DNA of 64,000 nucleotides from positions 23,213,012 to 23,277,011 of the forward strand of contig NC_058063.1 in assembly GCF_020085105.1 (NCBI RefSeq), written 5' to 3'. The position numbers and the translations under genes were made by a program. This DNA comes from Siniperca chuatsi (Eukaryota > Chordata > Actinopteri > Centrarchiformes > Sinipercidae). Below, one piece after another: positions 2,816-51,068 of this stretch; positions within the stretch are counted from its first letter, which is position 1; each line of letters opens with the position of its first letter. The notes beneath the pieces were generated by a model. The model saw only the letters and a list, made by a program, of their open reading frames with translations, did no database searches and was not told the origin of the DNA.

Positions 2816-5800
2816 ATGAAGAGGAGGCAAACATTTGGGTTTCTGCTCTGGGTAAGACTTCTCATCCAGCATCTACTTTCAACTCGTCTAAAAGTGTCAA
2901 TTCATTAATTAAAACTGGGATTTAATGGGATGTTAACTATTGGTTTTCTCCCATTAAATTCTTAATTATTATTCAGTGTTTGAATCCGGGGGGATTGATT
3001 AAAGAAAACAATCTAAACTACGGTAAATTGACGTTATATCAGTAAATGTAGCTGGAACGCTGATCCTGATGCTGCCATTTTATTTTAAAGGACTTGATTT
3101 CTGCTTGGTCTTTTCTTTAGCAAAATTATAAAAAGCAAATGCAGCAAAGCAGCTGGTGTGAATTTTGAGGAAGATTTTACATCTAATATTTATATATGCA
3201 GTGTATCTAATAATGAAATGTACAGGTTTTCTGAATTTAAAAACCTGGTCAGAATGACTTTTTATTAAATCTACATAAAACCAGATGTTTGTTTTCTTGA
3301 TAAAATGCTCTTTTTTTTTTACTCTGAATAGGATTTAAAATACTTTGAATGCATCTTTATTGGCTTAAATCATTATTTTTATTGGATATGTGTTATTTTG
3401 GACAAACCCTTCTCTTCCTCTCTTTTGTTATTTGATTTGTTTTTATATTATGTTGGTTTAAAGTCGGGTACACGTCATTTCATTATGTATCTTTGAACAC
3501 AGCAGCGGTGCTCGTGGTGGAGCTGGATTATAATGACTCATTAGTTCTTTGTTTCTGCTCGTCGATCGCTCAGGTGTGTTGTGTTGTTTCCAGGTGTGTG
3601 CTTGCTGTGTTGGTCCGACGTGCTGCTGGCACGACCTGGACAACAGCGAGTACGACTGCTGGCCTCTGGACAAACCCAACGAATACAACATGATCGACTG
3701 TGGAGGTGAGAATCCGTCTTGTTGTGCAGAGTTAACAGCTGGTCTGATGCTCAACAAGTGACTCTGGTGTGAGATTAAAGTCTGATGATAATCTATATTT
3801 TTATTCTCGTCAACAAACCTCACGTTCAGACTGAAACCAGCAGTGAACGTATCTGCTAACGAGTGTTGTGTGTGAATCACAGCCTGATGGATCTTCTTCC
3901 TCTGAGCCACTGAGCTCCACTGTTGTCCAGAAACTAGTACACCGTCCTGCTGCCCCAAACACTCACTACAGCACCGCATGTGGATTCATCCGCTGCTGGA
4001 AATAGTCCCCAACTGATGCTCTGTTTCCTCCTGTTAGTCTGATAAAAACTACAGCGAGCAGCTGTTTGAGGAAACTACTGAGCCTTTTTAAACATCAAAC
4101 TATATATTTAAAGATTTACGTCTTCAGCAGGAACCAATGGGCTCGCAGCTGAGAGCCGCAGACAGGAAGTCAGACAGTGTTGAGAGACGGACGTGTTGTT
4201 GGTTTGAGTCTGCATGTGGGATTTGTTGACAGATGCAAAAACACTGAATAACACTAACCCTTTAAGGTTGAAAACAGTTTGTATCATAGTCTGTAGAGCA
4301 CACAGCAGCTATAAATCGGGCCAGGTATCGTGTTTTATGTAAATGTCAGTTCCAGTACAATACCGACACCAAAACAATACTTTTTCCAATTGATGAATGC
4401 TTCTGTTTAAAGTAAGAACTTTGCCTAAATAAAATATAGTGTAAAGATAAAAAGGTTTCCAGTTTTAGATCAGAAAATACGTGAATAAGTTAGTCTGAGA
4501 ATGTGACCAAGCACTTGATGCTAACTGTCGGCACTTCACAGTTTTTGATACTTAATGCTACGGAGTCATTAAGGTTTTAACTCAACATGTATTGGAGTTT
4601 GATACCCAGCCCTAGCTTCTGACTCAGTCCCACTTACACCGTCCTGTTGCCCCAAATACTCACTTGTCTTACAAGACGAAAAGCCTTTAGGAGTATGTGA
4701 ACTGTACTGCAGGAAGGAAATTATTATTTTCTGTGTGTATAATGTGATTTTCATAAACCTATTTTCTTCTGACGATTTTGTAATCTTATGTGGTCTTTAT
4801 ATGACATAATTACGCCAGTGAACCAATAAGGAAACGCTGCTTTTACATAAGTAAATACTACAGAAATAAAGCTTTTCCTCAGTTCGAACCTCAGTTGTGC
4901 TCTCTGAGATATTCTACCTTCGATCATAACTGAATTAAACACTGGTTCTTCGTCTGATTGCCGGTTAATCTCTCTCTCTCTCTCTCTCTGATATTCTATG
5001 TCTCTCGCCCAGGTCTAGAGATGGCCTGGGTGGTCCGTCCTCCAGAGACGGTGAAGACCGGTGAGGTGTTCAGCGTCACATACTCGGTAACGGCCCAGGA
5101 CTCTTTCTACCAGTGGGCCATCGAAAACCACATCTTCACACACAGGTTCATACATGAGTTATACTGGCTTACAACTAGTTATACTAGATTTCACCCAGAC
5201 TGACTGACTTACACTTCTTTACACTAGTTTTAGACCAGACGAACTAAATTCTACTGGGATCCAAACTGGACTGGTCTGAACTGGTCTGGTGTGAATGTGT
5301 GTTTAGTTCCATAGTAAACGCCGAAGCAGCTCAGAAGTTTTGTGAACATCACGACTGTCCGGCCAACTGGAAAGACGCTGACGGAGAAAACTGCTGCATT
5401 CATCACGCTAACATCCACTCCTGTCCACTGGTACACATGGTATACATACTTTGATTTTAAATTTTTTAAATTTTCTTTATTTGTCTTCCTCACTCTTTGA
5501 AGCTGTAGCGACGTCTAAAACTTTGGGATATTTGCTAACAAACCACAGCTAGCTCCCACATATTAATGTTGGTAATGCTAATGTTGTGCTGATGGATAAA
5601 TAACAGATTCCAGTAAAAGCACAATATTAATTATTTCAATTACCAATCTTCACATGCCATCAGGGACCATTAAAACTATCAATCAAATCATTAAAATCAT
5701 TAGTAAATGCAATCAAGGATTCATAGGACTGAATCTGGTTTGCTCTGGAGAAGCCTTTTTCACTTACTTTAATTATTAGTAATTACAGCAACAGGCCTCC

Positions 5801-8800
5801 TCTAAAATACAACCGTTTAGTGAGCAAAACTGAGGGCATCTAACACTCAATAATAAAAACAGATAATATTCGAGATATCTCATCTTGAATGTAAAATCTG
5901 AATCAGTAACTGCATCTGTCAGATAAATGTCGTGGATTAAAAATACAAAAAAATATTTCCCTCCAAAATGTAGGAGGAGGAAATGTAGAAATACTCTAGT
6001 AAAGTACCAGAACCTCTAACCTGTATTGAAGCACAGTAATGGAGTAAAGGTACTTCAACCTCTGCATGTCAGCAGATATTTAGTTTTCATCGGCAGGTGT
6101 TTATTTAAAAGTGCCATAATGTGACTAAATTACATTTTAAAGACATCGAACTAATCAATATTAAATAAACCAACTTTCAGGCATCAGAGAGCATCTGTGG
6201 TCCCTGGATTCCTGACGATGGAAAGATCTTTACACACACCATCTCTACCTCCGGCAAGATGACCCAGACCAACTGGACTGCCAAGGTAACGCACTCACAT
6301 GTCAAGACCAGTTTATCTGTACAGCCCAATATCACAAAGTTTCTCAATAGGCTTTATAGGCTCAAAACACCAATGGTGTCCAACCTAGCCAAAGCTCTCT
6401 ACAAAAACTCCACAAAATTCTTAAAACATAAGGACTAAATGGAAGAAACCTCAGTAGGGGGAATTCAAAGAGAGATCCCCCCCTCCTCGTATGACTGGGT
6501 GTGCGACAGAAGCTACAGGTGGGAAATGGCAATTACAAGAAATAAACAGAGTTGTAACAGTTAGTAGAAATAAGTATGAAATAAGTCCAATCGTCCACAC
6601 AGTCCCACAGTCCAATCCCTTAGCTCTCAAATGAAATCTCAAATTGAAAATTGTCCAACATTGAGCATTAAAATAGTAGTCCTTTGTCCTTTTGTGCACA
6701 AGAAGCATCTAAGGAATGGTCATAGTACATCTGGAGAGCAGTGATGCGGGTTTGGCTGCCTAGTTAAAGTCTACAAATGGACGAACTTTATTAAGTCATT
6801 GCTACACTATACTAATCTTTCCTAAATGTACGTAAGAAGCCTGACATAAGTTTTATATCTGTATGCAGATGATACACTACTTTATTTCACTAGTGTTTAC
6901 TCCTTATTCTCCTAATTCTTTGTGGGTTTTTTGCTAATTTTCAAGGTACAGGATCAATCACCACACTCCCTACAGATTACCCAACTCCAGATTTTGTAGG
7001 GACAAACTCCTAAAGTCACATCTAATCAATTGGGTTCAGTTACTCTGATGTTAACTTCACAGCCTTGGCTGTTGTTCCTAAGTGACCTGTTAAACCCATT
7101 GCTCTGTCTTGCAGGTGGTTCTGGTCCATGCTGGCTTAACCTCACTCATCGCTCACATACGAGTTGGTCGCATGCAGGTTGCTCTTGAGGCCAAGAGCAC
7201 CGTGTATCCTGCTGTAGGTAGGTTATGTTGGTGTATGTCCCTCTCTACTTCCTAGCATGACTATAGAAACAAATACAACAAGGAGCTTCACATTTAGGCT
7301 CAGCTCCTCTTTACAGCCCAGTACAACACTCGCAGCACCAAGGACACCACACCAATCCACTTGTCGAACTCCAGCTCCATCTCACACTCACTCATTAACA
7401 AGGCCACCAATTTTTGGGACATTTTATGCCTATTAGATAGTCGACAGCAGAGAGATGACAGGAAATGAGGGGACAGACAGATGGGGAAGGACATGCAACA
7501 AAGGTCCCCAGCTGGATGTGAACCTGGGACATCGTGGCTTATGGTTGGCCACCTGGGCACCCCCTTGAACTCCAAACACTGAGGGGGCAATCTCTTGCTT
7601 ATGTATTATATAAAAACATTTAGGTAAACTGTAAGGTCAGGAATGGTTGTGTTTAGGTTTCAGAGACCAGTATCTTTGGGTATAATGTTACATGTTGATA
7701 ACTTTAGGGTTGGGTTTGGTGTGAAAAGGTGGGGGATAGTTAGCGACTGAGATCTTAGCTACCATCAACGAACATGTTACCCTCATCACATTGTTCCAGT
7801 AGTCTCTCTGCTCCAAACATGGTGTTGACATTAGTGAAAACATGAACAAGTAGCTATTTAATCTTCCTTTCTCCCCTCTAAGTGTGTGGTGATGGCGTCT
7901 GTGAGGAGGCGGAGCTTTGTTCCACCTGTTCAGCTGACTGTGGTGAATGCCCTATGACCCCGGCCACCAAGCTGGCCATCGGCCTGCCGCTCAGCCTGCT
8001 CTGCCTCTGCTTCGTACTGACTGCTGTGGTGAGAACTCACACAACACGTCAGAAACCCTGCAAAATACTCAAAATTAAAAAGAAAGCAAAAATTAAAACC
8101 CATAAATAAATCTGTCTCGTGTAGTGGCTGAGGTACCAGAAACAGAAGCTGTTGTGGGACGAGAGCTGGATCATAGACTTCACTACGATAAAACAAGGTA
8201 CTGTAACAATCCAGATCAGACCGGTTTAAACTGTTTGAAACTAGTTTAATCAGCTCTGAACTGCTCTGAAACTGGTGTAAACTGGCAAGGGACTCTAAAA
8301 TGGGCTGAAACAGGTCTGAACTGGTCTACACTGGTCTGGAACATGACAGGTCTGGCATCGGTCTGAACTGGTTTAAACAGGTCTGAAACTTGTCAGTACA
8401 GGTCTAAAGTTGGTCTAAAGACCGGTTGCTGTTAGAAACCCTTTATCTACATGGCAGCATTAAGTGTATCCCTCTCTCTCTTTCTTTCTCTCTATAGATC
8501 TGGAAGCTCGTATGACCATGGGCAGTATAATGAGTGTACCGGTGGGGAACAGCGACAGTAACACCAGCTGCGTGACTGCTCTCAGCTCCTATACAGGACA
8601 ACCAGGGACCCGAAAAACAATGTTCACCTGCACTGGGATATAGTACGCACACCTGTTTGACTACCTGTCTGTCTATTTAAACCTCATTCATGCTGTCAAC
8701 ACAGTAGTATGTTTTTTGCAGCTGCTAGTTACAGAGTTGTGACCAGGACTGTGTTTTATTTGAAATAGTTTGATACTATTGTAGATGCAATGCATAATTC

Positions 8801-11800
8801 TCGGTACCAACTGATACTGACTAAAACAGTACCTTACTTGTTTTTTTTTCTAACAAAAGAAGCCAAAGTTGATTTCAATCAGGAACTACCAGATCAAACA
8901 ATTAGTTACCAAGGTTATGAATCTCACCAGACATTCAAGGCCACCTTTCTGTACTTGACAGTTGCTTCCAAAAACTATTCAAGTTCAAAACCCAGCCCTT
9001 GTTGTGACCCAGTGTGTGGGTGCATGATAAGCATGCCTAGTTGCCAGCCATTTCGATTTGTGCCCTTGAAAATCAAATACAAAACTGAACTATACAACAC
9101 TATGAAATGAATTATGACAAACTGACTACTCTCTAACTGCTGGGGTGGTGAGACACTTGGAGCCTAATGGTGTATTCAGACAGGATGGATAGTGATACAA
9201 AGTCACATATATAAAGTCAGTGAAAAGACATGAGTAGGCATAACTGATGCAAATTCACTGCAAACTGAGGTGAAGATATTTTCAAGCGAGTTGAACATTT
9301 TGACGGAACTTGAGCAGAGAGGACAAAAGACAGAAACTGGAGGGGAGAACAGTTCTGTGATCAGTCAGAGTCTGAAGTGTCACACTTACAGTCTGTGTGT
9401 ACATTGCTAGCTATCTCAGTCAACGTCTGTACAGTAGGTACATTGTACTGTTTGGGGAGAATAAATACAGACTGCACTAAACAGTCCAGCAGCCTTAAAC
9501 TGGCCTTAAAAATGCTGTGGGGGCCAGAAAAGGTTGCAAAACATTGCAATAGAGACAAGAAGAAAGTCAGGCTAGGGAATATTATGTCTGTATAATTAGA
9601 GTCGACAGTAGAGAGACGACAGGAAATGAGGGGAGAAAGATTGAGAATGACGTGCAACAATGGTCCGTAAACTCCTAGGCCACAAGGAAGCCCCAGACTT
9701 TTCACTTTGACTGAGAACTTTAATAAATAGATCTACAGACACACATCAACACACTGGTTCTAGCTCAATGTTTCAAGCCTGGTTGGTAGAGATTAAGTCT
9801 CCAAAGTTCTTATATGATGGAGAGAAAGTTGGTGGGTAGACTGTTAGAAAACATCCTGGATTAATAATAATTTTCTTCTCCAGTGATGGCAGGACGGTGG
9901 CCATCAAGAGGATTCAAACAAAGGCTTTCTCTCTGTCCAAAACCATAAGACAGGAAGTCAAACAAGTCAGGTAACACACACACTCGTCATCCTTCCACAT
10001 CTAATGTGACCCTCGTATTTCAAATACGGTATTTTGACTTTCTCTCTTTCTTCGTCTCCAGGGAGCTCGATCACCCCAACCTGTGTAAGTTTATTGGCGG
10101 GTGTGTTGAGGTGCCCAATGTTGCCATAGTGACAGAGTACTGCCCAAAAGGAAGCATTAATGACGTTCTTCTTAATGACGAGATCCCGCTTAACTGGGGC
10201 TTCAGGTAGTGTGTTTTGTCACTGTAAAGGGGGTTTGGACTAATAATAAAGAAATTAAATACAATGAAACAGGTTAATTTGAGTAATAATCCCCAGTTTT
10301 ATACACTCTGCCAGGTTTTCCTTCGCTACAGACATCGCCAGAGGGATGTCGTACCTCCACCAACACAGGATCTGTCACGGCCGACTCAAGTCTCTAAACT
10401 GTGTCTTAGACGACCGCTGGGTCTGCAAAATAACAGGTAATATGAACGTGTGCCGTGGTATATATACCGATATGTTTAATCTACAAGGCTTGTTGTTTTT
10501 AATTTCCATTTTCAAATAGGAAATCTGGGAATTTAAATCTTTAAATCCAGGTAAAAAAAAAAATTACTTTTAAAATATTATTTTCATGGTTTACTTCATT
10601 TGACAGACTCCAGTGCAAAATCGGCAGCTAATTTGAATTGTCTCTCCAATTTGCTCTTTGTTTCTATCACTGACATCAGCATCAACAACAAAAAAGACAT
10701 TATTTACTGTAAACAGTGTCTTCATGCAGACAGAAACAGAATCTGGTGAAAAACTTTTCTAAAATCTACATATTCTTGGTAAAAATTACCACTAGCTAAT
10801 AAATGTATTGTCTAATGTTGCATTAAGTTTTACATCAGAGGTGTAAAAGCAAGGCTAAAGCAGTAAACCTTTACTGTTACAGGAGGCGGTGTTTCTCCCC
10901 AGCTTTTGAGTAGAGCTGCTACTGGATCCCATAGACGCCAATGAACTGACCCAAAATAAGATAATCTCACCATTTAGTCATACCTTCAAACTCCTCACAG
11001 AGGCAAGCATTGGCTTGTTAGCCCCCTAATCAGGAATATAAAATAGGTTTATACCATTATTAAAGTGTTTTTAAGGAAATGCAGAACAATGCTAATATTA
11101 GCTTATAAGTAAAAAATCCACAAACAAGAACCTCTTCCTTTACATCATCTGACTTTTTGAATTCTCTGGAACGCATCATAAATCCTGGACACTGATTGGA
11201 TAGTTTCATTTTCTGATTTTGATTGACACGTGGCCTGTCCTGTCAGATTACGGGCTGAGGATGTATCGCAGGGACGATGGGGCGGATCCTCTTTCCACCT
11301 ATCAGCAGAGACTCTTGGAGGTGTACATGCCGCCCGAGTTTCATAACTCCAACATGGAGCCGACGCTAGCTGGAGACGTGTTCAGGTATCAAACACATAA
11401 AGACTTGTTTTTGTAACTTAGGGGGACATTGCATTGACTTACATTAATTCCCTGGAGACTTAACCATAACTACAACTTGCCTACGGTTCGGGTTAAGCTA
11501 ATCAGCATTAGTTCATACGACATGTCAGACCACGTCAGAAATTAAAAGTGTTCATATTTGTTCTGAACGGCCAAACTGAAAGACGGGGTAAAAAGCCGGC
11601 CATCGTAGGGAGGAGGGAGACGCAATATCGTTTAAATATGAGGATAATGGAACATATTTTCAGACAGTCTCTTCAAACCCCGCCTACTTTCTTACCTCCA
11701 CACAGCTAGCCAATCACTGCATGAGGTGGGCATGAATGTTGGATTGTCGGTTTGGAAAAGTAACGGACAAGCAGTTCTGACGGAGTATACTGGCAGTTTA

Positions 11801-14800
11801 ACCCCAACCTTTACCCTAAGCTTAACCAAAAACCAAGTGCTAACCCTAAAACTTGGTGGTTTACCTTGTGGGGACCGGTCCCCAAATGGCACATTCACAC
11901 ACACACACGCACACACACACACACATTCACACACACGCACACACACATTCACACACAGTCATGTTGATAACTTTTCTATGTTTTCCCAGTTATTCCATCA
12001 TTCTGCTGGAGATTGCCACTCGCAGCGACCCCGTCCCAGTAAGTAACAATCTGATTGGTTGACTGTCCTGTCACTCCACTGTAACTCAGTGACTGTAATA
12101 GACTGACTGTAATAGAGAGCATAGACTGTATATGAGAAGTGGACGCAGCCACCGTGATGTCTCCCATTGGTTTGTGGACTAATGTTTTGAAGCCTCAGTT
12201 TGGCATTTTGGCGGTCGCCATCTTGGTTTTTTGGAGACAGGAGTGACCATATTTGGACGACAGAGAGTGGAGCTGGGGAGGGATCTGCATTGCTACGCCT
12301 CTACCCTAACTGACAGGTCGCCATGGTAGCGACTTGTCAATCACAAGGTAGCCACGCCCTAAAGCATACCCTGCTTTATTGTCTATTTTACTCTAAACGG
12401 GACCATTATTTCCAAAATGAACATCATACTGTATTAAAGAAAACTAGCAATTGAGACCATAAACTTATTAGGAAACCGTTTACGGAGGTAATAAATCAGG
12501 TGAGAAGTTGGGTCGTTTTCTCAAAGACTTCTATACAATCAGACATCTTTTTGCAACCAGTGGAGTCGCCCCCTGCTGGCCATTAGGAAGAATACAGGTT
12601 TCCACATTGGCTTCACTTTCCAGACCCGGAGGCTACGTCCACTTCTTTTATACAGTCTGTGGTGGAGAGGCAAAGTCCCCGCTGCATAATGTTTATCACC
12701 AGGTTGTTATGTGTGCTGCCTTCGTGGTCAGGTCACTGGTTAAATGAAGGACAAATAAATAAATAAATACTTTGCAGGCAGAGGAGTCCAATCTGGAGAG
12801 CGCCTGGTGTCCTCCTCTGCCAGAGCTGATCTCCAGTAAAGCCGACAGCACCTGCCCCTGTCCTGCTGACTACGTAGAGGTGTGTACACACTGTCTAGAT
12901 CTGCTTTTAACCTGCTTTTTATTGTCTTTAATCTGTTGTTTCACTCTTATAATTTCTATTTCTCGTGTCTCCAATTGTTTTAATGTTTACTTAATGAATT
13001 GCACTAACCTGTATGAAAGGTGCTATACAAATAAAGTTTGACTGACTGACTGATTACTTGATGGACAATACGATGATAGAAAAGTTCTAATTTGATCATT
13101 TTTGTTTGTTCGTATGCTGAGAAAGAAATCTCTCTTAACCTTTTCTGCCGTATTTTGTCCCGTGTGTCTTTCCGTAGCTGATCCGGCGATGTCGCTCTCG
13201 TAATCCCGCCCACCGACCCACCTTTGAACAAATCAAGAAGTTTGTTCATCGAATCAACCCGATCAAAGTCAGCCCGGTGGACATGATGATGAACCTGGTA
13301 ATAACATGCATCATACTCAGAGCAGACATCAGATTAAATGTAATATAGTATTTGGCTCAAATTTATAATTTACTTTCAAATACTTAAACTTCACATTGTA
13401 TCATATTGTATCCTGTCTTATATGATATATATTGTATCATGCTATATTATGGATGTGTACCGTATGTCACATCAAATTATACTGAATGCCACAGCATTTT
13501 GTCTTATTGTGACAAGCACTCAGTTGGCAGTTTATTAGGTACAGCTAGCTAAAACTAATGCAGTCCTGTAATAAATCCTGAGACGCGTTGATTCAACTGT
13601 ATGCTCGTTTTGGAGGATGTAGTTTAGGATGCTGTTGAACTGTATTTCATTATAAAGAGAGGTTTTTCTCCCCATTTATATCAATGGGCGTAGGCTATAT
13701 TACAGAAACACCTCTTTGTAACATTAGCATGTGTGAAATTTCTGCTGTTTACCATCAAGATGTACCGGACACTTGATGTATGCCAGATGTGTTATGTGCA
13801 GACTCCTGCAGTGTAAACAGGCAAAACTTCACTCATAACAAATTGTGTCAGTACAGGATTTAATCAGTATTATTTATCAGCCACACAGGACCATGAAAAG
13901 AGACTTTGCACACCTGTTTGATCATGTTTCTCTGAAATATTACCAGTGTAATAAAGTGATTTCCATCCAAAGCCATCAGTCTGCACCGATCACAGAGCCT
14001 GACAAATGTTTACAATATTAAATAGCAATAAACATGCTGTAACAGTGTGAGCTGTCTTACCTTAAAGCTAGTGTTTCTTTCTCACTGGTTTCTGCACAAA
14101 ACCATCCACCACCTTATTAAAATCCAGGGCTCTGACCAGATCACTGGGTGTTTATAGATGATTCTGCACTGCGAACTGAAGTTTCCTTCTAGGAATTTTT
14201 ATTTAAATCAGAATCAGAAATACTTCATTGAACCCCGAAGGGAAACTCTTTGTTACAGCAGCTCACCATTACGTCAGTGCACACAGGAGAAAGTACTAGC
14301 AAACAATATGATACAATACACTATAAAACAGGTCAGAAAATAAATTAAGTACCAGGTATAAGTATAAGATAAAATAAGTGTGAAGTGCCAAGTGGGTTTA
14401 CCGGTTGATGATGATAATACAGTATAATAATACAATGTAATAACATAAGTAATGAGTAGTAGTGCATGTACTGTCGAGTTGTGTGTAGCCACACGATTTA
14501 GTCACATGACGACTGTTTTGTATCATATCAAAACAAATCCCAACTCAGTGTAATATGAAGGTACAACTGTCTCTGTTTCAGATGGAGAAGTACAGTAAAC
14601 ATCTGGAGGTGTTGGTGGCCGAGCGGACTCAGGATCTGATGCATGAGAAACAGAGGACTGACAGGCTGCTATACAGTACGACTCACACATATACACACCT
14701 GTTCATCACGCCAGTTTAGTTACTGATGTCCAGCTGAAGTTTAAGCTGCAATACAAAATGTTACATGTTAATCATGTATACTTTCATTGTGTTAATAATA

Positions 14801-17496
14801 ATAATTTTCTGGTTTTGAGTTGCAGGTGCAGGTTTCTATTCTTATAAACAACATTGGAAGAAACCCAGAAAAGATGTATTTATATGCAGATGATACAGTT
14901 ATCTATACAGTTGCCCCGTTTAAACCAACCAATCTCCAAACTGCCTCCACAAACACCAGTTAACATTTTAACAATTAAAATCAACCCCGAATACACAAAA
15001 CAACAAATGTATAACTTTCTCCATCTCAACTTTCTGTACAAAAGGTAGATAACATTACTCGTATTGAAACGACAGGCGGGACTGAGTCTCTGAATGACAA
15101 ATTAACTTTCCACACAGAAACACAAACCCAAATAGTTTTTTTATTTCCCTTTTAAGAAATGCTTTCCCTTTGCAGCAAGAAAAAATATTACTCAGTCCAC
15201 ATTTTTATTTGTTCTGGATTATGGTGACATCCTGTGTACGCATGCGTCGGACTCACTACTAAAACGCTGCTTTCATATCAAGCATTCAAACTCCACATTC
15301 AAAAAAACGTTTCACGATGAACCCGTTTAAATAGTCGCGCTCTCTCCTTTACGGCTGTTCTCTTCGTGCGTTTCCATCCAGCTGGTTTTCCATCGTCTGA
15401 GCTTCGACTGGAGCTCTTTTTAATGACGTCATCTCGTTGCGTACTCTTTTTCTGCGATGGTTTAATGGCAGCGAGCTCATGTTCAAACAGCAGCAGTGGA
15501 TGGAAACAAGCAGCGAGTCACGTTTTCTTTGGATGATTTTCTGGAAATTCGCATTAAAATTTGCGCTTCATTTGGACTCGTGTGTTAACTACTCTACGCT
15601 GCCATTTGGCCAGTTCTCTCCTGTAAAAGAGATAATGTATCTGAAGAGACTTCCTGGTTAATTAAAATAAAAATATGTTTGTGTTGCAGGTATGCTTCCT
15701 AAACAGGTGGCTGATGACCTGCGGCAGGGGAAGCCGCTGCAGGCTCAGAGTTACGTCAGCGCCACCGTCTTCTTCAGGTAGCAGAGACAGGAACTGACTG
15801 TTTCACATGTGCAAGTCATAATCTGCCTTTTTAATTTCATTAATATCATCGTATATTAATTTGTTTTGACAATGAGCGAAACAGAAGAGTTAAATGATAC
15901 TATATAATTAATCCAAGCACTGTTAAAAATTATTTAACACTAAGAACATCAAAGATAAAAGTTTGTTAGAATAATAATGGCTACTTTTACTGTACTGAAT
16001 ATTTTGCTTGTCTGCATATTTGTGTTTATATACATTTTCGTCTTTATTGTTCTGTATTTGTCCATCACTGGGTGACAAGTGTCTACTTACTTTATTTCTG
16101 TTTCTTTTCTCTTTTTATGTGCAACTATGTCCATTTACCTCCTTGAGGGTCATCGTGGAACGAGAAGAAATCAAAGTATTAAGTCTAAAGTATGTGTGTG
16201 TGTGTGTGTGCAGCGATATCGTGGGCTTCACGCAGCTGTCCAGCAGCAGCACTCCTTACCAGGTCGTCGACCTCCTCAACAAACTCTACACGACGTTTGA
16301 CGACATCATCGACAACTACGACGTGTACAAGGTGGAAACCATCGGCGACGCCTGTGAGTGACAATATTTAGCTTATCCTCAAGATATAAATGGGGTGGAC
16401 AAAATAGAAACACCTCTTGGTATGGCTCAAACTACAGCATACATTATTATAATCTTGATGAGGGGAGGATTTATTGATCTCACTGTATCATCGTGTGGTC
16501 GTGTAGACATGGTGGTGTCTGGTGTTCCTCTGGAGAACGGGATCCTCCACGCCTCAGAGATCGCCAGCATGGCTCTGGACCTGGTGGGCGTCTGTCGCAC
16601 CTTCAGGATCCCCCACAAACCCAACACACAGCTGCAGATCCGAGCGGGGATACACTCCGGTACACACACGTTTCAAACAACATGTACTCCGGTGCACAGA
16701 AGTTGCTAAAAAAACAAATCAGAATCTGTCATTAAACCCATTTTCCCGCTCTTTTAACGTCTCTCTCTCTCTCTCTCTCAGGTCCGGTGGTGGCGGGGGT
16801 TGTAGGGACGAAGATGCCTCGTTACTGTCTGTTTGGAGATACAGTCAACACAGCATCCAGGATGGAGTCCACCAGTCTGGGTAACACTCAAAATCAATTG
16901 TTTCATCCATATTATATTCAGCGCACAGGCTGCTGGGCTACTGATCCCAGGTCTGCTGCTGTGGCTCTGTTATTAAGCACCCTGACCCCGTAGATCACGG
17001 AAAAGAACCGAAACCAACTGCAGTAACGTAGAATATGTAAACTGTATTTGTTTCTGGACTAAAACCAGAGCTAAAACCAGCGGCATGTTGCTTTATGAAC
17101 ATGCTAACGCTGCGTCGCTGCCTTTGCAGCCCTGAAGATCCAGTGCAGCTCCAGCGCGTTTTACCTGCTGGAGGAGATCGGCGGCTACGTGCTGGAGTGC
17201 AGAGGGACGCTGCAGGTCAAGGTGAGCCCGCTCCCACCACAGTCCAGTTCTGCCGGGCACTGGGAGCACTGGGAGCTCAGCCCAGTGACGCTGTCTGTCT
17301 CCAACAGGGGAAAGGTGACATGGTGACTTACTGGCTGGAGGGGAAGAAGACGTCTCTGGTCTCCAAGGACGTTAACCCCGACGCCAAGATGCCCAAACAC
17401 ATCGCCGTGGAGACGGAGGCAGAGGCGGAGAACGAGCGAGAGCTGTATTCCACCATACCGGGGATTCTGAACGACGATCTCCTGGATCCGGTCTGA
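2816..17496 (+). CDS. receptor-type guanylyl cyclase with short Cys-rich ectodomain
   Basis: Membrane enzyme predicted to turn GTP into cGMP when its ectodomain is engaged. Exons: 2816-2851, 3594-3705, 5013-5145, 5307-5430, 6181-6285, 7115-7217, 7883-8028, 8125-8197, 8498-8642, 9884-9970, 10062-10205, 10315-10436, 11247-11385, 11990-12038, 12778-12879, 13178-13297, 14582-14675, 15690-15777, 16214-16353, 16507-16659, 16782-16880, 17130-17221, 17308-17496. All phases agree, giving 2595 bases and 864 residues. A signal peptide (1 to about 19) precedes a ~215-residue ectodomain with many Cys, an N-W-T sequon (166-168) and a final C-G-D-G-V-C..D-C-G-E-C module (206-227). The membrane helix is 235-255. 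The kinase-homology domain keeps VAIK (331-334) but has HGRLKS (424-429) in place of HRD and DYG (444-446), as in pseudokinase domains. The dimerisation linker precedes the cyclase: SDIVGFT (641-647; metal-binding Asp 642), KVETIGDAY (680-688; Asp 686, Glu 682 for purine choice) and GDTVNTASR (757-765). Catalysis looks intact. The ectodomain does not resemble the natriuretic-peptide receptor fold; the ligand is unknown. Confidence 0.9.
7423..7580. repeat. dispersed SINE-like repeat, copy 1
   Basis: The core GACAGcAGAGAGATGACAGG leads into AAATGAGG, then GACATGCAACAAAGGTCC and a tRNA-B-box-like GTGAACCTGGGAC. Related copies are at 9600-9690 and 45220-45300. It sits in a guanylyl cyclase intron. 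Family assignment (tRNA-derived SINE) is inference; the shared sequence is seen directly. Confidence 0.6.
9600..9690. repeat. dispersed SINE-like repeat, copy 2
   Basis: It repeats the core of the copy at 7423 (GACAGTAGAGAGACGACAGG, then GACGTGCAACAATGGTCC) with scattered changes. It is intronic in the guanylyl cyclase gene. Confidence 0.55.
11893..11957. repeat. CA microsatellite
   Basis: (CA)n with ATTC and CG interruptions, directly upstream of the 11990 cyclase exon. Confidence 0.9.
12118..12660. mobile_element. non-autonomous DNA transposon with terminal inverted repeats
   Basis: The left end reads CATAGACTGTATATGAGAAG followed by TGGACG. The right end, read on the other strand, is ACAGACTGTATAAAAGAAGT followed by GGACG. 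These terminal inverted repeats bracket about 500 bases with no transposase frame. It lies in a guanylyl cyclase intron. Elements with this terminus are, to my knowledge, common in teleost introns; the superfamily is not assigned, and no clear target-site duplication was seen. Confidence 0.7.
12985..13045 (+). repeat. LINE/SINE 3'-tail-like fragment
   Basis: A tail of the form GGTGCTATACAAATAAAGTT followed by a TGAC microrepeat, typical of the 3' ends of fish non-LTR retroelements. It lies in a cyclase intron. Family assignment is from memory of similar tails. Confidence 0.45.
14196..14262 (-). repeat. dispersed motif with CCCC/GGGG stem and AATAAAG-like tail, copy 1
   Basis: On the minus strand: TGTAACAAAGAGTTTCCCTT then CGGGGTTCAATGAAGTATTT and CTGATTCTGATT. 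The same unit recurs at 22529 and 54196 on the plus strand. It is intronic here. Confidence 0.6.
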
Positions 17497-20912: not shown

Positions 20913-21406
20913 AATGAGGACATCGATCAGCTGGAAACAACAACTCTTTAATATCAAAGTGAACATGAATCTGGACAAATACATCGGCGCGAAGTACAAA
21001 TATTAAACAAATTAACTCACTTTTTCACTAAATGTGAAGCTGCAGCCGGCTAGCTTAGCTTAGCACAATGACTGGAAGCGGGGGGAAACAGCTAGCCTGG
21101 CTCTGAAGGTAAAGCGGCAGAGAACCTGTGAAACCGCTACAGGTGAAGGTGGATTTGTTACCTTTATTATCTTCTCAATTAAATTAATAAGATGAAAAAC
21201 GTCGAAACCCCCAAAATACTCAGTTTACGACAGGCCGAGGAACCAGCAAATCCTCACATTTAAGAGGCTGAAACCAGCGAAACCATTAACTGGATATCAA
21301 ATTAGCTGCCGATTCATTTTCTGATGATCGACTGATCGACTGATCGTTTCGGCTGCATTGAAACTATTGATCAGAGAGCTGTTGCACTGATGAAGAGCTG
21401 CTGCCA

Positions 21407-21512
21407 GCGTGTACCCACAACCCCCCCCGTTACCCACAACCCCCCCCGTTACCCACAACCCCGTTACCCACAACCCCGTTACCCACAAACCCCCCCGTTA
21501 CCCACAAACCCT
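21407..21512. repeat. minisatellite, C-rich unit
   Basis: About six head-to-tail copies of a unit of the form CGTTACCCACAACCCC, with C-run length varying between copies. It stands shortly before the second minisatellite at 21590. Confidence 0.85.
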
Positions 21513-21589
21513 TGTGTTTGGGGTCTTTTCCAACGTGTCAGTGCAGTTATTCTCGTTTCCATTCAGAAGCTTTCAGCGGCAGGTTCAGT

Positions 21590-21985
21590 CCACTCCTGAG
21601 TCTCTACAGGTCTGTCAGGTCTCTAGAGGTCTCTACAGGTCTGCCCGGTCTCTGCAGGTCTGTCAGGTCTCTAGAGGTCTCTACGGGTCTGTCAGGTCTC
21701 TACAGGTCTGTCAGGTCTCTACGGGTCTCTACGGGTCTGTCAGGTCTCTAGAGGTCTCTACGGGTCTGTCAGGTCTCTGCAGGTCTGTCAGGTCTCTAGA
21801 GGTCTCTACGGGTCTGTCAGGTCTCTACGGGTCTCTACGGGTCTGTCAGGTCTCTAGAGGTCTCTACAGGTCTGCCCGGTCTCTGCAGGTCTGTCAGGTC
21901 TCTAGAGGTCTCTACAGGTCTGCCCAGTCTCTACAGGTCTCTACGGGTCTGCCCGGTCTCTAGAGGTCTCTACAGGTCTGTCAGA
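21590..21985. repeat. minisatellite built on AGGTCTCTAGAGGTCT / AGGTCTGTC units
   Basis: About 400 bases of near-identical short units: CTACAGGTCTGTCAGGTCTC alternating with TAGAGGTCTCTACGGGTCTG. These form higher-order blocks, for example CAGGTCTCTAGAGGTCTCTA repeated many times. It happens to be open in more than one frame, but the peptides are pure repeat and no gene is inferred. Confidence 0.9.
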
Positions 21986-22528
21986 TCAAGCCTCTCAGCC
22001 CGTGAGACGGTCGAGCCCCAGGAGGGTTTAAACGGTCCATCTTCCTGAGAGAGAGAGAACAAATCACACTTACATCACGTGAACAAGAACAAACCGGGCC
22101 GTGTCTTTGAAAAGGGGTCAACGAAATGTGCGACACTGAGTTCAGGTCTGGGTCTTTCTTCACCGCCCCCCCTTTATTTACATTAACAAACGGTCGTGAT
22201 ACGGATCCGCTCACCAGCAGACAAACACCGATAAATCTGTGCAGAAACCAAAATATGTCGAAAGTAAAAGTCGGCAAATTTGTCGTAAAAACGCGATATT
22301 TCGATTATTTATAACAAACTCGTCCGTGCTGCTGTTGTTTTTACGTCGGCCGGACGTCCTGTCGTCATCAGCTGACTGTGGGACATCACTGTGACTCAGA
22401 CAAATCAATAACTGAAGAATCCAGCCGATGATGCTCTATATTGATTACATTCCTCGTTCTGAGCTGTACTGAACATTGAAGCATAATTACATAATCTTAT
22501 TTAATATTATCTGTACTTATATCTGTAA

Positions 22529-25590: not shown

Positions 25591-28500
25591 ATGCCTCTCA
25601 CGGGGAGGAATTCTGCCCGGAGGAGGAGAAAAAACCCGGATGATAAGCTCCCGGAGCGACCCGGGGAGTCTACTTCTTCTGCTGAGGTACGGGAAGCTAA
25701 CCGTGTTAGCATGCTAACAAGCTGACATCCACCTCTCTGTGTGTTGTGTTTGTGATCGAGCTGCATTACCTACCGCATCGTAGCGAGCACGTACTGCCGG
25801 TTATCGCTGTTTAAAGTTGCGGGATTAAAATACCGATAAACGTATTTGAAGCGAGCAGAGAAGAGCTGCCGGTTCGCTAGATGCTAGCAGAGTGTTAGCA
25901 TGCTAGCCTGGTAACAGCTAGTAATGTAATGTGGGGTCGTTCTCTCCTGCCGGTTGTGTGTTTGTGTTTTTTTTAGGGAAGCGCCAAAGCCACCCCCCCC
26001 CAAAGACTAAAATCAAAGTAGGAAACTGAAGTGCAGAGAATAAATACCTGAAGTTAGTTTAACATCTGATATTCGTCGGGTTTTGCGGCTGTTACCTTCA
26101 ATAGCTCCGGGTCAAAGCCGCGATTTCTCCCAGTTTTGGGATGTGTTGGAGAGCTAATTTAGGCAGACGTTTCACAGTTTTGATCAACTCAAAATCACCA
26201 AAGATGACAAGCGCAAGTAACTGAATGTCTGTCCAACTCTCCTGTTACTATGGGCGTAGTTAGGGGCCGTTGTAAAAGTGCAATGCGACCCGTTTCGATC
26301 TGTTTTTAAACACAGAAACCACAGCGGTTATCGAAAGCGACAGCTCATCGTGGTTATCAATGACCTACTTCCTCAATTATACACATTTCAATAAAACTAC
26401 ATACATATCTGTCCTATTTTCTGTGGATGTTCAGGTGATGGCGCCCACGCGGATGAAACTGCGCGTGCGTCGTCGTGACAACGCGGCCGGAGGTGCGGGT
26501 GCTGCAGCAGGAGGCGGTCAGCCAGAGGAAGAAGAGGAGAGGAGGCGAGAGAGCGGCGGCCGCAACAGCAGGAGGAAAAACGGCAACAACGCTTCGACCA
26601 CAGCTGCTGCTGCCACCTCCTCGTCGTCTCCTCCCTCCTCCTCCGCCTCGGCCTCGGCGCGGGCAGTGATGGCGGCAGAGGAGGCGTCACCTGACTCCAA
26701 GTGCCCGATCTGTCTGGACCGCTTCAACAACCTAGCGTACCTGGACCGCTGCCTGCACCGCTTCTGCTTCCCCTGCATCCAGGAGTGGTCGCACAACAAG
26801 GCCGAGTGCCCGCTCTGCAAGCAGCCCTTCGCCTCCATCCTGCACTCGGTCCGCGCCGAGGACGACTTCAAGGAGTACACGCTGCGGCCGGCACCTGCCA
26901 ACAGCAGCGTCGCCGCCACTGTTGCGATGGTGGCGGCGATGGCTTCGGCAGCGAGGAGCGACCACCAGATGAGGCTGATGCTGAGGAGGCACAGAGCAGC
27001 AGACGGCGGAGAGACGACCACGAGGAGGCGGAGGACGGAGAGGGGAGGAAGAGGCGGGGGCGGCAGGAGGGCGGGGGAGAGGACGGGGGTGTGGGAGTGG
27101 TACCTCGATTCTCCTCCTCTTGCTCTCCCTCCTCTTCCTCACCATCCTGCCGTCTCTCCCATTGTTGCAGAGGACAGTGAGGAGGGAGAAGACCAGCAGG
27201 AGCAGAGGAGGAGGGGAGGCGCTGATCTGGCGGAGCGTGGGGTGATATTTGAGGGATTGACGGGACTCGGGGGGGCGGTGGTGCCTGTGGCCCCCAACGA
27301 CCGGGCGTCACGGCGGCTGATGACTCGTTTGGTGGCGAGGCAGCGGCTGCAGCGAGAAGGTGGAACGGTGCGGCGGCTGAGGGAGAGAGAGACGGTGGCC
27401 TTCCGCCGCGCCCTCTACCGCAGCGGCATACAGGTCCGCGGTGTCGCCGGGTTCAGTAACCAGGGGCAGCAGCGTGACATCACAGCAGAGAGCTTCCGCC
27501 GGAACCCCACCCACCTGAACAGACTCCGCCCCTGGCTGCGGCGGGAGCTCACGGTGCTGTACGGTGCGCACGGCTCGCTAGTCGACATCGTCCAGCGCAT
27601 CATCATGGCACGGCTTGCCCGCCACGGCCTGGAGGACACGCCTACCATAGAAGAAGAGCTGCAACCATTCCTGTTGGCCCGCACCGACCACTTCCTGCAT
27701 GAACTGGTCAGCTTCGCCCGCTCGCCGCTCAGCCTGGAAAACTACGACCTGCAGGCGGTGTACGAGCCGCCGGCCACCGCCCTGGAGCTGGACGGGACGA
27801 TCAGCTCCACCGACAGCAGCTCCGTCATCGCCATTTCAGAGGGTGAGGAAGAGGAGAGGCGGGTGGGAGGAAGATCAGAGGAGAGGCTGCTGGGGAGGGC
27901 GGGGGGTGCTCACGACGACGTCATCCAAACAGGAAGCTGCCTCAGCCTGTCGGCCTGGGACGATGAGACTCCAGGCCCCTCCTACTCCACCGCCGAGCCT
28001 TCGTGTTCGCTCGCCTCGCTGTCGTTCAGCCCCGCCCAGGAGGCGGCCAATGAGGAGGGAGGAGATAAGCGGGAGGAGGAGGGGGAGGAGGAGTGTCTAA
28101 TTGTTGGATACAAGAAGCCAATAGCGGAGCGGACTCCTGAACTGGTGCAGCTCTCCTCTGACACAGAGGAAGAGGAGGAGAAGAAGAAGGAGGAGGAGGA
28201 GGAGAACACGGCAGAGAAGCTTCCTCCCCTCGCCTCCACCACTCCTCCCCTCTCTTACCTACCCACAATCCCTCCTTCTACGTCAGGCGCCTACAGAGAC
28301 GAGCAGGACGACAATCTGAAGGAGAAAGACGGCGAGGCGGGCGGGCGTCGCTCGTGGTCGGGCAGCTCGGGGAGAAGCAGGAACTCCGTGTGCACGCTCA
28401 GCCCGGCGACGCCTGGAGAGAGCGAGCGGCAGCGGGAGAGAGAGAGCTGGAGAGACAGGAAGCAGTCGGGCAGTGAGGCTGCGAGGGAGAAGAGGAGGAG

Positions 28501-31500
28501 GAGGAGGAAGAGGAGGAAGAGAGGGCGGGAGAGGAGCGGTGACCACCCGAGGAGGAGCGGCACCCTGTCTAACCCAAACCGCTCCATTTATCCCGCCATG
28601 ATGCGCCACCGCTCCCACTCACCGTATCACTCCAGCGTCGAGTCTGGCTCGGCGCTGCCGTCCAGCCCGCACGACTCCAGCTGGGAGTACCCCTGTTCCC
28701 AGGTTTCCCCTCTCACCTCCTCTGTCTCCTCACCCTCCTCCTCCTCATCCTCATCCTCCTCCTCCTCACCCCTCTGGTCCTCCCCACCGCTGTCTTCACA
28801 GACGCCGCCGACGCCCTCGCTCTCCCCCAGCGACCGCAGCAACACTCACCACGGAGAAAAACCCGGCGGGAAGAGGAAGTACAAGAGCCGCCACCTGGAC
28901 AGCGATGACAAGGACCCCACCTGGAGGCCGAGCAGCAGCCACGGCAGGGAGAAGAGGCGGAAGCTGGGGGAGAGGGAGAGGAGGAGGAGGGGGAGAGATG
29001 GAGGGAGGAGAAGAGAGAGGCAGAGGAGGGACGCTCACAGGGAGAGCGGCGGGGACAGGTGAGAGCAGACACTTCCTGTTTGACCGATATTAAATCAATA
29101 ACTGTGCTGCTCTGTAACTAATGGATGGAAATGTCCTCTGTTTCCTGCCTGTCCTCCAGCAGCAGCAGGAGGTGCAGAGAAGACCGGAGTCCCAGCGTGG
29201 AGATCATCTACGAGGGCACCATCATCTCGAACGCGACGCAACCCCGCGCCTGCAAACGCCGCAGGAAACGACACCGCAAGGCACAGCACAGCAGGTACAG
29301 CATGTCGCAGTCGCAAGGCTGGAAAAAAATAAACGTATGATGGAATTAAAGCGCCAACACACCACTTTATTCAAATCACTGTAACCGTAGGAGACACTAG
29401 AGCGGATTAAAACATGCGCGGCGTTACTTCAAAACATGAATGTAGTCAAAACTATTGAACAGTTGGTGATGACATAAGACCAGGATCAATCAAGAAGGTG
29501 GAACCAGAAAATGTTTGGTATTTTTTCTTTAAAAAATTACTTTTCTGTCGATCGACTAATCGATTAATTGACTAATTGTTGTAACAACCAACTGTTCTAA
29601 TAAACTATCAATTGTTATTGTTGTTGAAGTTATTCATTAAGCAAAAATACCAAAGACCGTCTGGTTGCAGCTTCTCCGACGTGAGGATTTGCTGTTTTTC
29701 ACTCTCTTATATCACAATTTTATAGACTAAAAGATTATTCCCTACTCTAACTATTGATTAATAGATAAGGGTTCAATAGCATTTTATCGAATCTTTACGT
29801 AAATAATACAAAAATAACGAGAGAGATCAGTATTTAAGCAGGGGCTTCCCCACTTTGTTGTGAGCAACATTTTGTAGTTTTGGTGGTCCGCCATGTTCAG
29901 TCAGTCTTGTTAACAACCGTGTCGTTATCACATGTTTGTAACTCTCTCAAAACTCAGAAAATAAGGCTGCGTAATTTTTCCCTGGACGGTATTAAACTTT
30001 ATTAAAACATCCCGTCTCTCTCTCTCGCAGTCCTCCGGTTATCATCACCCTCGACAGCGACAGCAGCCACGAGAACGTCAACAACAACAGAAGCAGCAGC
30101 AGCAGTCCGCTCAGCAGCCAGCAGACCGTTGACTTCTCAGACCTTCCTCCTCTCCCATTGGTGCATTCTGACAGCGTGGGCGGAGCCTTGAATGCAGAAA
30201 TCGGCGAGCTTCCTGTTGACATCCTGGACCAGGCATCTGATGGGTCGGAGACAGAGCCAGCCGTCCGGTCCGAGTCCGCAGGTCCCATCGCCATTGACAA
30301 CAGCGACCATGATGTGGACGTGGAAAACGTCGAAGAGCGCGGTTCACTGCTGGGATCGGATGATAATAAAGGACCAATGACAGAGGCTGATACAAAGGCA
30401 ACCGCTGCTGCAGCAGCAGGGACGGTGGACGGTGGCTCTCAGCCAACAGGGGAGAACGACGCCGCCCCCACAACAACGGATCTGGTTCACAAAAGAGCCT
30501 CCGAGGTCTCGACCTCTGACAGCCGTCTGCTAGCAGCCATCCTCAATGACCTGAAGGAAATCGCCGCACCCAAATGTGACCTTTCTTTGAACTTTCAGCC
30601 CAGTTGCTCACCGAACACCAGAAAAAAGCATTGTAGGGATCAGTGTGAGGTTAGTCAGGCTCATTCAAACCAGGAGGGCTGGCTGGCTGGGACGAGACAT
30701 CCCAACCCCAATTTGCCTGAGGAGCGACAGTATAACGATATCGGAGACCAAAATCATGGCTTTGACTTGCCGACGTTTCGTACCTCCATCCCCCCGCTAC
30801 CTCCTCTTGAGAGGCTGAAGGAGTGCCGGGCCAGAGAGGAGGGCAAGGATGTCCCTCCGCTCCTGAAACAGGCCAGACCCGTTAGGTCGTACAACAGAAA
30901 CATGCCGCCGCCATTAAAACACAAAGATGCTGGGAGTCCACACCTGTCACCAATCTCTCCCATTGACCTGCACTCACCTCAAGCCTCTGTGGACGCTGAC
31001 CCAGTTGGTGTAAATTCTCATGTTGACCTCAATTTAAATCCCACCATCTCCCCCATTGACTCTTGTTTGGGTGCTGAGCTGCCTAAAGATAACCAGGCCA
31101 TCCCTCCCATTTTAATGCTGAAGAGACATTTCACGAGCGCTTTGGCACTGAGAGGAGAGCTGGCCTCTACTAGCAGCATTTCAGCCATTGACGTGCATTC
31201 AGCTGCTCCTTCTAAAGTCGGAGCATTGACCATCGGCCTCCGTTCCATGAGTCACAAACCTCCCATTGATTTCCATTCTTCTTCTTGGTCTGAAAATAGT
31301 TCCTCAAGTGCTGATTGCTTACCACATCTGGACTTCAATTCTTTTCATTCTTCAAAGTTACATTCTGGCCATGATAGCACAAAGGAAATATCTTCTGGTC
31401 CTAGACCTATTGACTTGCATCCTGTGAATTCTTTATCTCCCATTGATTTCCATTCAGCCAAGACTGGCTGGTCCAAAGACAAGCCAGCTCACACTGACTC

Positions 31501-32440
31501 TACCTCCAGAGGTTGCAGGAATAAGACTCTAAGCCCAAATTCATGGCGGGTAGCACCCGTTGACCTCCATCCTTCCAGCAGTGTTTCGGCTGAAGGCACA
31601 CCGGCAGGTAGTGATGTTTTCTCAGGAGCCAACTACACATCACCTCCTGTTTTTGTTTCATCCATTGATTCTAGGACACAGAATCCCTCCTCACCCATTG
31701 ACTCCCACACTTCCAGTAAGAGAGAGAACCTGTCAGAAAGGCTTTCGCCCTCTAGAATTAGCTCAGTGCCAACAACAGCTCCCAGCGGTAGGTTGTCAAA
31801 CATTGACGTGCATCCTGGAAGTTCCAAATCTATGGTTGACCTCCACTCTTCCAGTGCAGCTTCAGAAGGACTGACAGACAACAAGGCATTGCCATTAGTC
31901 AATCATGAGGAAAGATTGCCTCATGGTTACCTGCCACCCATTGATTTGCATTATACAAGTCCTGTGTCACCTGCTAACATACATTCTTCTAGCTTCGTCA
32001 GCACCATGATTGACCAACACTTGAACCACACAGCCATATCCTCCTCTACCTTCCAAACATCACGTAGAAAGTGCATTTCTGAGTCCGAACCTTCCCTTGA
32101 ATCCCACTCAAAACTTCTCCACCCCACTGACATTGATTCAAACCCTCGCAACCACTTTGATCCCAGTTCCAACCCACAGTTCCTCATTGACACCTGTTCA
32201 AAACACAATCTCCCCGTTGACTCTCTGCGTGAATCTCAGCCACCCGTTGACTCTCAACCAAAAAGCTCTCTGAGAGACTTTCAGCTCCCCACGGACAATC
32301 ACATCACGCCTTCCTCCCAGTCTGTTGAGAACCAGTGGAACTCAAACTCCTCCATTGACGCCCATTCAGACTCTCAGTCGCCCGTTGACGAACGCTCAGC
32401 CAGCAGCGTCTGGACCGCACACACTCACTCTGCCACATAG
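25591..32440 (+). CDS. topors: TOPORS, RING-type E3 ubiquitin / SUMO ligase
   Basis: Nuclear ligase known in mammals for binding topoisomerase I and p53 and adding ubiquitin or SUMO. Coding exons: 25591-25686, 26435-29058, 29160-29294, 30031-32440. All phases agree, giving about 1754 residues against 1045 in human. Exon 1 (M-P-L-T-G-R-N-S-A-R-R-R-R) gives a basic start like the human one; if it is not used, translation could begin at M of 26438. The C3HC4 RING (about 122-160) starts C-P-I-C-L-D-R-F. The conserved mid block lies near 300-450 (F-E-G-L; A-H-G-S-L-V-D-I-V-Q). A SUMO-interaction-like C-L-I-V-G-Y with P-I-A-E-R-T-P-E-L-V follows near 585, then acidic and Arg/Ser-rich parts. E-K-P-G-G-K-R-K-Y-K (~840), S-V-E-I-I-Y-E-G (~920) and P-V-I-I-T-L-D-S-D-S (~955) match the human protein. 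The tail from about 1260 carries repeated I-D-x-H motifs. An AATAAA stands at 32498. Confidence 0.92.
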
Positions 32441-50693: not shown

Positions 50694-51068
50694 TAAAACA
50701 AGATGGCGACCCTGCTGCTCCTACAGGCGTTGGTGGTATAGTGGTTAGCATAGCTGCCTTCCAAGCAGTTGACCCGGGTTCGATTCCCGGCCAACGCAGT
50801 TGCTTTTTTGGCACATTTAAGACACCAAAACTGCCTTTTACTGGTTTCTTATGTTGGTACAGAGTTATACACGGTGACGGGAGAAGTTATATTGCTTATT
50901 ACTTACGTTAAAGTAACAATAACTCAGTCCGTTAGGAGTAAACATCACAACTTAAAAGGTCATAAAAACCCCTGAGCATCATTTTTAGTTTGTTTTTAAA
51001 AAGTTAGATATGAACTTAGATGCAGAGGGAAGTATTAGAGCATCTATCTAAACAGCTGCAGCTACCAG
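50694..51068 (+). repeat. left arm of inverted repeat carrying tRNA-Gly
   Basis: TAAAACAAGATGGCGACCCT starts the arm; TTATACACGGTGACGGG lies inside; ACAGCTGCAGCTACCAG ends it. The same sequence appears inverted at 51684-51950, except that about 105 bases (50883-50987) are present only here. Confidence 0.85.
50727..50798 (+). tRNA. tRNA-Gly (anticodon UCC)
   Basis: 72 bases. The acceptor arm GCGTTGG pairs with CCAACGC, with A as discriminator base. The A box is TGGTATAGTGGTTAGCATA and the B box GGTTCGATTCC. The anticodon stem CTGCC/GGCAG-like arm holds loop C-T-T-C-C-A-A, anticodon TCC. There is no intron. It matches the vertebrate tRNA-Gly-TCC sequence from memory with at most a base or two of difference. 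No T-run terminator stands directly after the gene; TTTTTT occurs at 50803. Confidence 0.95.

Follow-up and report, generated by a model that had tools for sequence, protein, structure and literature searches.

Natriuretic, retinal, sensory-organ and enterotoxin/guanylin groups are distinguished among the receptor guanylyl cyclases of vertebrates (PMC1435932). Of the seven membrane guanylyl cyclases of mammals, four have an accepted extracellular agonist, two are orphans and one is queried (PMC5023690). The retinal members, GC-E and GC-F, have kept an ectodomain, yet they are orphans driven from inside the cell by calcium sensors (GCAPs) (PMC5023690). The present analysis concerns a receptor guanylyl cyclase gene in a stretch of 64,000 nucleotides (hereafter the window) from the fish Siniperca chuatsi, located at C22:23213012-23277011 in a genome of 718,788,923 bases and 65 contigs. 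Its product, a receptor guanylyl cyclase that crosses the membrane once, probably belongs to a separate lineage, which is represented by two copies in the genome (the second on C6), and is probably gated from outside the cell.

The exons of the gene were joined by hand into a model of 23 exons, extending over window positions 2816-17496 of the + strand and encoding 867 amino acids. All introns have GT donors and AG acceptors, their phases are consistent and there are no internal stops. The initial annotation had described exons that join in phase from a signal peptide to a membrane helix, and this description was borne out, the phases after exons 1-7 being 0/1/2/0/0/1/0. The span it had proposed, 2816..8028, was exact with respect to the ATG and the end of exon 7, but it covers just the 5' third of the gene, 16 more exons following in phase up to the stop at 17496. 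The encoded protein consists of a signal-peptide-like start (judged by eye and by hydropathy), a Cys-rich ectodomain, one membrane helix (residues ~234-260 by hydropathy), a pseudokinase, a coiled coil and a cyclase domain, which is the order expected of a membrane (receptor) guanylyl cyclase. GC-D/E/F and GC-G share this overall layout. In the Pfam search, the kinase-like family PF07714 matched residues 331-564 (E 1.3e-39), HNOBA matched across the coiled coil (583-625) and the cyclase family PF00211 matched residues 632-817 (E 5.9e-66).

The extracellular part comprises ~213 residues (24-236), in close agreement with the ~215 originally estimated, and follows a signal peptide of ~23 residues. 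Small residues at positions -1/-3 suggest that the latter is cut after C23, in which case the mature ectodomain would contain 14 cysteines (15 if the cut precedes C23). The "Cys-dense start" of the initial annotation belongs mostly to the signal peptide, of which C14, C16, C17, C22 and perhaps C23 are part as the sequence is read here; moreover, C22 is not conserved in the C6 paralogue, and the C6 residue opposite C17 precedes the acceptor of C6 exon 2 and is thus no true match. Conversely, the two other cysteine features that it had reported were recovered: a cluster in the middle of the ectodomain (C106, C111, C123, C124, C133 and C144), and a CGDGVC..CSTC..DCGEC module (~208-232), whose six cysteines at 209-230 immediately precede the membrane helix. 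A crude propensity count over the two paralogues hints at beta strands at both ends of the ectodomain core, which is weak evidence, and a beta-sandwich fold, proposed from this count alone, would be equally tentative.

These features are distributed among the exons as follows, all on the + strand. Exon 1 (2816..2851) carries the start codon and the first half of the signal peptide (12 residues) and has a homologous first exon in C6, while exon 2 (3594..3705), encoding the remaining signal peptide and the mature N terminus, and exon 3 (5013..5145), encoding the ectodomain core with the first beta-prone segment, are both conserved in C6. According to the gene model and the C6 alignment, exon 4 (5307..5439) contributes the clustered cysteines C106 to C133, and exon 5 (6181..6285) contributes C144 together with a 12-residue stretch that is the same in both copies. 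The second beta-prone segment, placed by the gene model and the propensity count, is in exon 6 (7115..7217), and exon 7 (7883..8028) encodes the six-Cys module adjoining the membrane and the transmembrane helix, a combination present at two genomic loci only. In the intracellular part, the juxtamembrane region is assigned by the gene model to exons 8-9 (8125-8197 and 8498-8642); the kinase homology domain (residues ~320-564, as supported by the PF07714 match) and the start of the linker to exons 10-16 (9884..13297); the dimerisation coiled coil, coinciding with the HNOBA match, and the start of the cyclase domain to exons 17-18 (14582-14675 and 15690-15777); and the guanylyl cyclase domain (to ~817, as supported by the PF00211 match), the C-terminal tail and the stop to exons 19-23 (16214..17496).

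The ectodomain could not be assigned to a described family. In Pfam, nothing exceeded the cut-off in residues 1-236, and PF18560 (Lectin_like), which scored E 0.0065 to 0.032 depending on query length, below the cut-off and in only one of the two paralogues, was not accepted. A sequence search of the PDB yielded only two, unconvincing, matches to proteins of other kinds (E 0.12 and 0.67), a two-sequence ectodomain profile gave no PDB match at E 10, and NCBIfam gave none at E 1. Pattern matches numbered 12 in prokaryote and 9 in viral contigs, and none of them was confirmed. In the literature, no vertebrate receptor cyclase with such an ectodomain was found among the matches listed, which is no proof of absence. 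Genes like the present pair are very probably already included in automatic genome annotation under a generic receptor-cyclase name.

In the whole 719-Mb genome, the ectodomain gave 13 matches, of which the window and C6 genes accounted for six each; the remaining one, on C9 (E 0.67), is regarded as noise. Similarly, all four genome matches to the six-Cys module plus membrane helix were at these two loci. The C6 paralogue was modelled as 23 exons. A splice-aware aligner placed 21 of them directly, exon 1 was identified from its ATG and splice sites, and a second run added the final exon. Its ectodomain intron phases are the same as those of the window gene, and its homologous signal-peptide exon 1 is joined to exon 2 in the same phase. 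The ectodomains of the two copies are identical at 117 of 187 aligned residues (62.6%, with 3 gapped), a count in which the first two aligned residues precede the C6 exon 2 acceptor and are both mismatches. The corresponding figures are 17/26 for the six-Cys module, 156/243 (64.2%) for the kinase homology domain and 143/174 for the cyclase domain, and all cysteines of the window protein from 23 to 230 are kept in C6. Because the C6 paralogue shares the phases, the signal-peptide exon and these 117 residues, a chance origin of the ectodomain model can be excluded. By the Nei-Gojobori method, the proportions of nonsynonymous and synonymous differences in the ectodomain (pN and pS) are 0.232 and 0.641 (dN/dS ~0.19, a rough ratio, as synonymous sites are near saturation). 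The low pN relative to pS indicates that the ectodomain is under purifying selection and is no decayed remnant.

The surroundings of the two genes were also compared. No counterpart of the window's open frames beyond position 17600 was detected in 90 kb of C6, and at the DNA level matches between the window and the C6 region were limited to cyclase exons and a few repeat-like stretches (the tblastx rows for this comparison carry joined E-values of little meaning). With this outcome, a genome duplication could not be established as the origin of the pair.

The best solved relative of the window protein is NPR1, which aligns with residues 227-821, from the membrane helix through the cyclase domain (E 3.9e-150). 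Two stretches of the cyclase domain carrying catalytic motifs are identical to NPR1 in this alignment, and the cyclase should therefore be active as a guanylyl cyclase; we take the identical residues to include those that bind metal and specify guanine in active homodimeric guanylyl cyclases. NPR1/GC-A and NPR2/GC-B have the same catalytic motifs. In the kinase homology domain, HGRLKSLNC and DYG, similar to the HGNLKSSNC and DYG of NPR1, occur at sites where active kinases have HRD and DFG. Judged by its motifs and layout, the gene product is almost certainly a membrane guanylyl cyclase producing cyclic GMP (cGMP). A PDZ-like end of its tail (LDPV) was considered and dropped, as the C6 tail ends differently.

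In contrast to these intracellular similarities, more than 430 residues precede the aligned part in NPR1 chains, and the window ectodomain does not align there. That region of NPR1 is an ANF-receptor ectodomain. The kinase homology and cyclase domains also align with those of GC-C (E 2.8e-102, window residues 329-832), but the solved GC-C chain matches only from residue 329. By sequence, the ANF-receptor family PF01094 has no match in the window protein. In a genome search, for which 112 of 261 first-look candidates were scored, no PF01094 match was detected near C22:23.2 Mb or C6:15.37 Mb, and 6 of the 11 other receptor loci were also silent. Matches were located 5' of the remaining 5, on C14 and C7 at no more than 10 kb, and on C17, C18 and C9 at ~34, 55-60 and 98 kb, assuming in these three cases that a single gene is involved. 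The silence at the window and C6 loci is thus weak evidence against a hidden classical ectodomain. The domain PF08376 (NIT), sought with the NIT-type invertebrate receptor cyclases in mind, had no match in this genome either, but its control gave no signal anywhere, so that this search was uninformative.

For the phylogenetic placement, 17 loci whose cyclase exons are of the receptor or the soluble type were picked by eye, on the basis of intron pattern, from at least 131 exon matches; the remaining matches were taken as adenylyl cyclases, and two of them were read. The cyclase-domain tree contained 16 rows, consisting of the window gene and 15 of the 17 loci including C6 (L023 and L024, both soluble-type fragments, were left out), and was rooted on the soluble cyclases. 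The other receptor-type rows were three natriuretic-type genes (all partial), two GC-C-type, four retinal-type and one GC-G-type gene, and a gene on C10, the class labels being assigned from motifs. The window and C6 genes grouped together (100/99) to the exclusion of the 11 other receptor-type cyclases, and both the natriuretic-type (100/98) and the retinal-type (98/98) clades left the pair outside. Grouping of the pair with GC-C was rejected by the approximately unbiased (AU) test (p-AU 0.004). A sister relation of the pair to the natriuretic genes (p-AU 0.218), to the C10 gene (0.195) or to GC-G (0.116) was in each case not rejected. The low value for the window gene joined with the natriuretic genes minus C6 (p 0.0006) speaks only against separating the two copies and does not serve as a test of nesting.

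The intron positions, expressed in window residue numbers, provide a second line of comparison; at the other loci, the window protein served as the guide for modelling, and the less conserved introns there are unsure. In the C6 model, 14 of 15 intracellular introns are at the positions of the window gene. Introns 742/1, 775/1 and 805/0 (within two residues) recur across receptor-type genes wherever the models reach, including the GC-D/E/F and GC-G types. Conversely, intron 619/2 was present in all eight covering classical-type genes (two GC-C, one GC-G, four retinal and one natriuretic type), but is absent from the window, C6 and C10 genes. Intron 683/0 was present in 9/9 covering classical-type genes (both of the covering natriuretic-type models among them), in the C10 gene and in 4/4 soluble-type models, and is absent from the pair, whose nearest introns to the two positions are 615/1, 644/2 and 691/1. 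Owing to its presence in classical, C10 and soluble-type genes, intron 683/0 appears to be an ancestral intron that the pair has lost. Intron 619/2, which the pair lacks, seems to be characteristic of the classical group. This pattern supports a separate lineage, and gives no date for it since introns can be lost. The separate receptor class put forward in the initial annotation is thus supported by both the 100/99 clade and the distinct introns, and the pair very likely represents a lineage separate from GC-A to GC-G. The loss in mammals that was also suggested there would agree with the published count of seven mammalian genes (PMC5023690).

The C10 gene (L014; G000:C10:755000-764999, minus strand) is another receptor-type cyclase that falls outside the classical clades. 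Like the window gene, it has introns 742/1, 775/1 and 805/0 and is without 619/2, but it differs in its long branch and in having kept 683/0.

In the mode of action that we favor, two receptor chains would pair via the coiled coil and the ectodomain, and the beta-prone, disulphide-knit core would bind a cue from outside the cell, for which a secreted peptide or protein is the likeliest candidate. The six-Cys module at the membrane would then transmit a twist through the helix, whereupon the pseudokinase and coiled coil would release the cyclase and cGMP would go up. We infer the pairing, the cue and the gating steps from a layout and catalytic motifs that are directly readable in the sequence, and control of the receptor by an extracellular cue appears reasonably likely. 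Several considerations weigh against a separate, extracellularly gated lineage. The evidence derives from the genome sequence of one species, and the deep fork adjoining the clade, where the pair falls beside other receptor cyclases, is poorly supported (55/18). In an unrooted 8-row tree of kinase and cyclase domains, without natriuretic rows, GC-G and the pair came together (94/93); this may speak against the deepest position for the pair, though, being unrooted, it does not exclude one. Furthermore, the WTAPELL segment is not kept in the alignment of the window protein with NPR1, where it is required for the hormone response (PMC5023690), so that the gating step may differ from that of NPR1. 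Finally, a conserved ectodomain is no proof of an extracellular ligand, because the retinal cyclases keep one and are driven from inside (PMC5023690). A more far-reaching proposal is about evenly balanced between true and false: that the pair constitutes an eighth class of vertebrate receptor cyclase, which predates the split of GC-A to GC-G, has its own small, disulphide-rich ectodomain and a ligand yet to be discovered, is retained as a duplicate pair in fish and is absent from mammals.

The foremost alternative is that the enzyme is controlled intracellularly, by calcium sensors or other partners, and that its ectodomain serves in trafficking, dimer stability or localisation. The precedent of the orphan, GCAP-driven GC-E and GC-F (PMC5023690) and the small size of the ectodomain are compatible with this, but in the tree the pair does not group with genes of the retinal type and the ectodomain is constrained much like the kinase homology domain (62.6% versus 64.2% identity between the copies), and we regard such control as unlikely. 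Less likely still is a contact or adhesion receptor, whose ectodomain would bind a partner on a neighbouring cell or in the matrix and couple contact to cGMP; the small size and Cys-richness of the ectodomain, in which no ligand-binding domain is recognised, and its beta-prone pattern by the crude count would be in keeping with such a role, but the Pfam and PDB searches produced no known adhesion domain, and the ectodomain consists of a single small unit, not of arrayed repeats. The protein might also be a classical receptor, either truncated or modelled without an upstream ANF-receptor ectodomain, as could be argued from the alignment of its membrane-to-cyclase part with NPR1 and from AG dinucleotides between the upstream stop and the ATG in both copies (including a possible acceptor 4 nt before the window ATG); a further 5' exon in either gene is not formally excluded. 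Nevertheless, each copy has a homologous signal-peptide exon preceded by an in-frame stop (24 nt from the ATG in the window gene and 66 nt in C6), the ANF-receptor search was silent near either locus (with the reservation given above), the ectodomain is under purifying selection and the intron positions are unlike those of classical genes, all of which render this explanation very improbable. That the gene is a pseudogene or an annotation artefact is barely conceivable: nothing was found in its favor, all 23 exons are free of stops and frame breaks, the splice sites are intact and the two paralogues are under selection.

The gating of mammalian membrane guanylyl cyclases is known mostly from the natriuretic receptors. 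If a separate, extracellularly gated lineage is indeed represented here, its conserved and different ectodomain of about half the size would mean that cGMP in fish responds to an input signal not known so far, and would provide a natural test of the amount of ectodomain required for gating the shared kinase-cyclase unit. The window and C6 proteins would then be orphan receptors usable for ligand searches.

Several other features of the window were recorded. Inside intron 16 of the cyclase gene, a stretch at 13517-13710 has two further matches in the C6 region examined and is probably a dispersed repeat. Further downstream, the open frames at ~21390-22000 repeat a short Leu/Tyr/Arg/Ser peptide and are probably a minisatellite. 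Two long open frames follow on the + strand, one at 26276-29059 with a RING finger (PF00097), which we take to resemble TOPORS, and one at 29996-32437 with no Pfam match. On the minus strand, an open frame at 43307-43765 has a CXXC-type Cys pattern (motif at 43388-43462) and is presumably like CXXC4/CXXC5; the neighbouring frame, 43675-44430, has no Pfam match. The window also contains two inverted pairs. One, at 53268-53919 and 62308-62971 (664 bp, 94.7% identical), is probably a dispersed repeat, and the other, at 50694-50881 and 51762-51950 (189 bp, 97.9% identical), carries a tRNA-Gly(TCC) gene in each arm.

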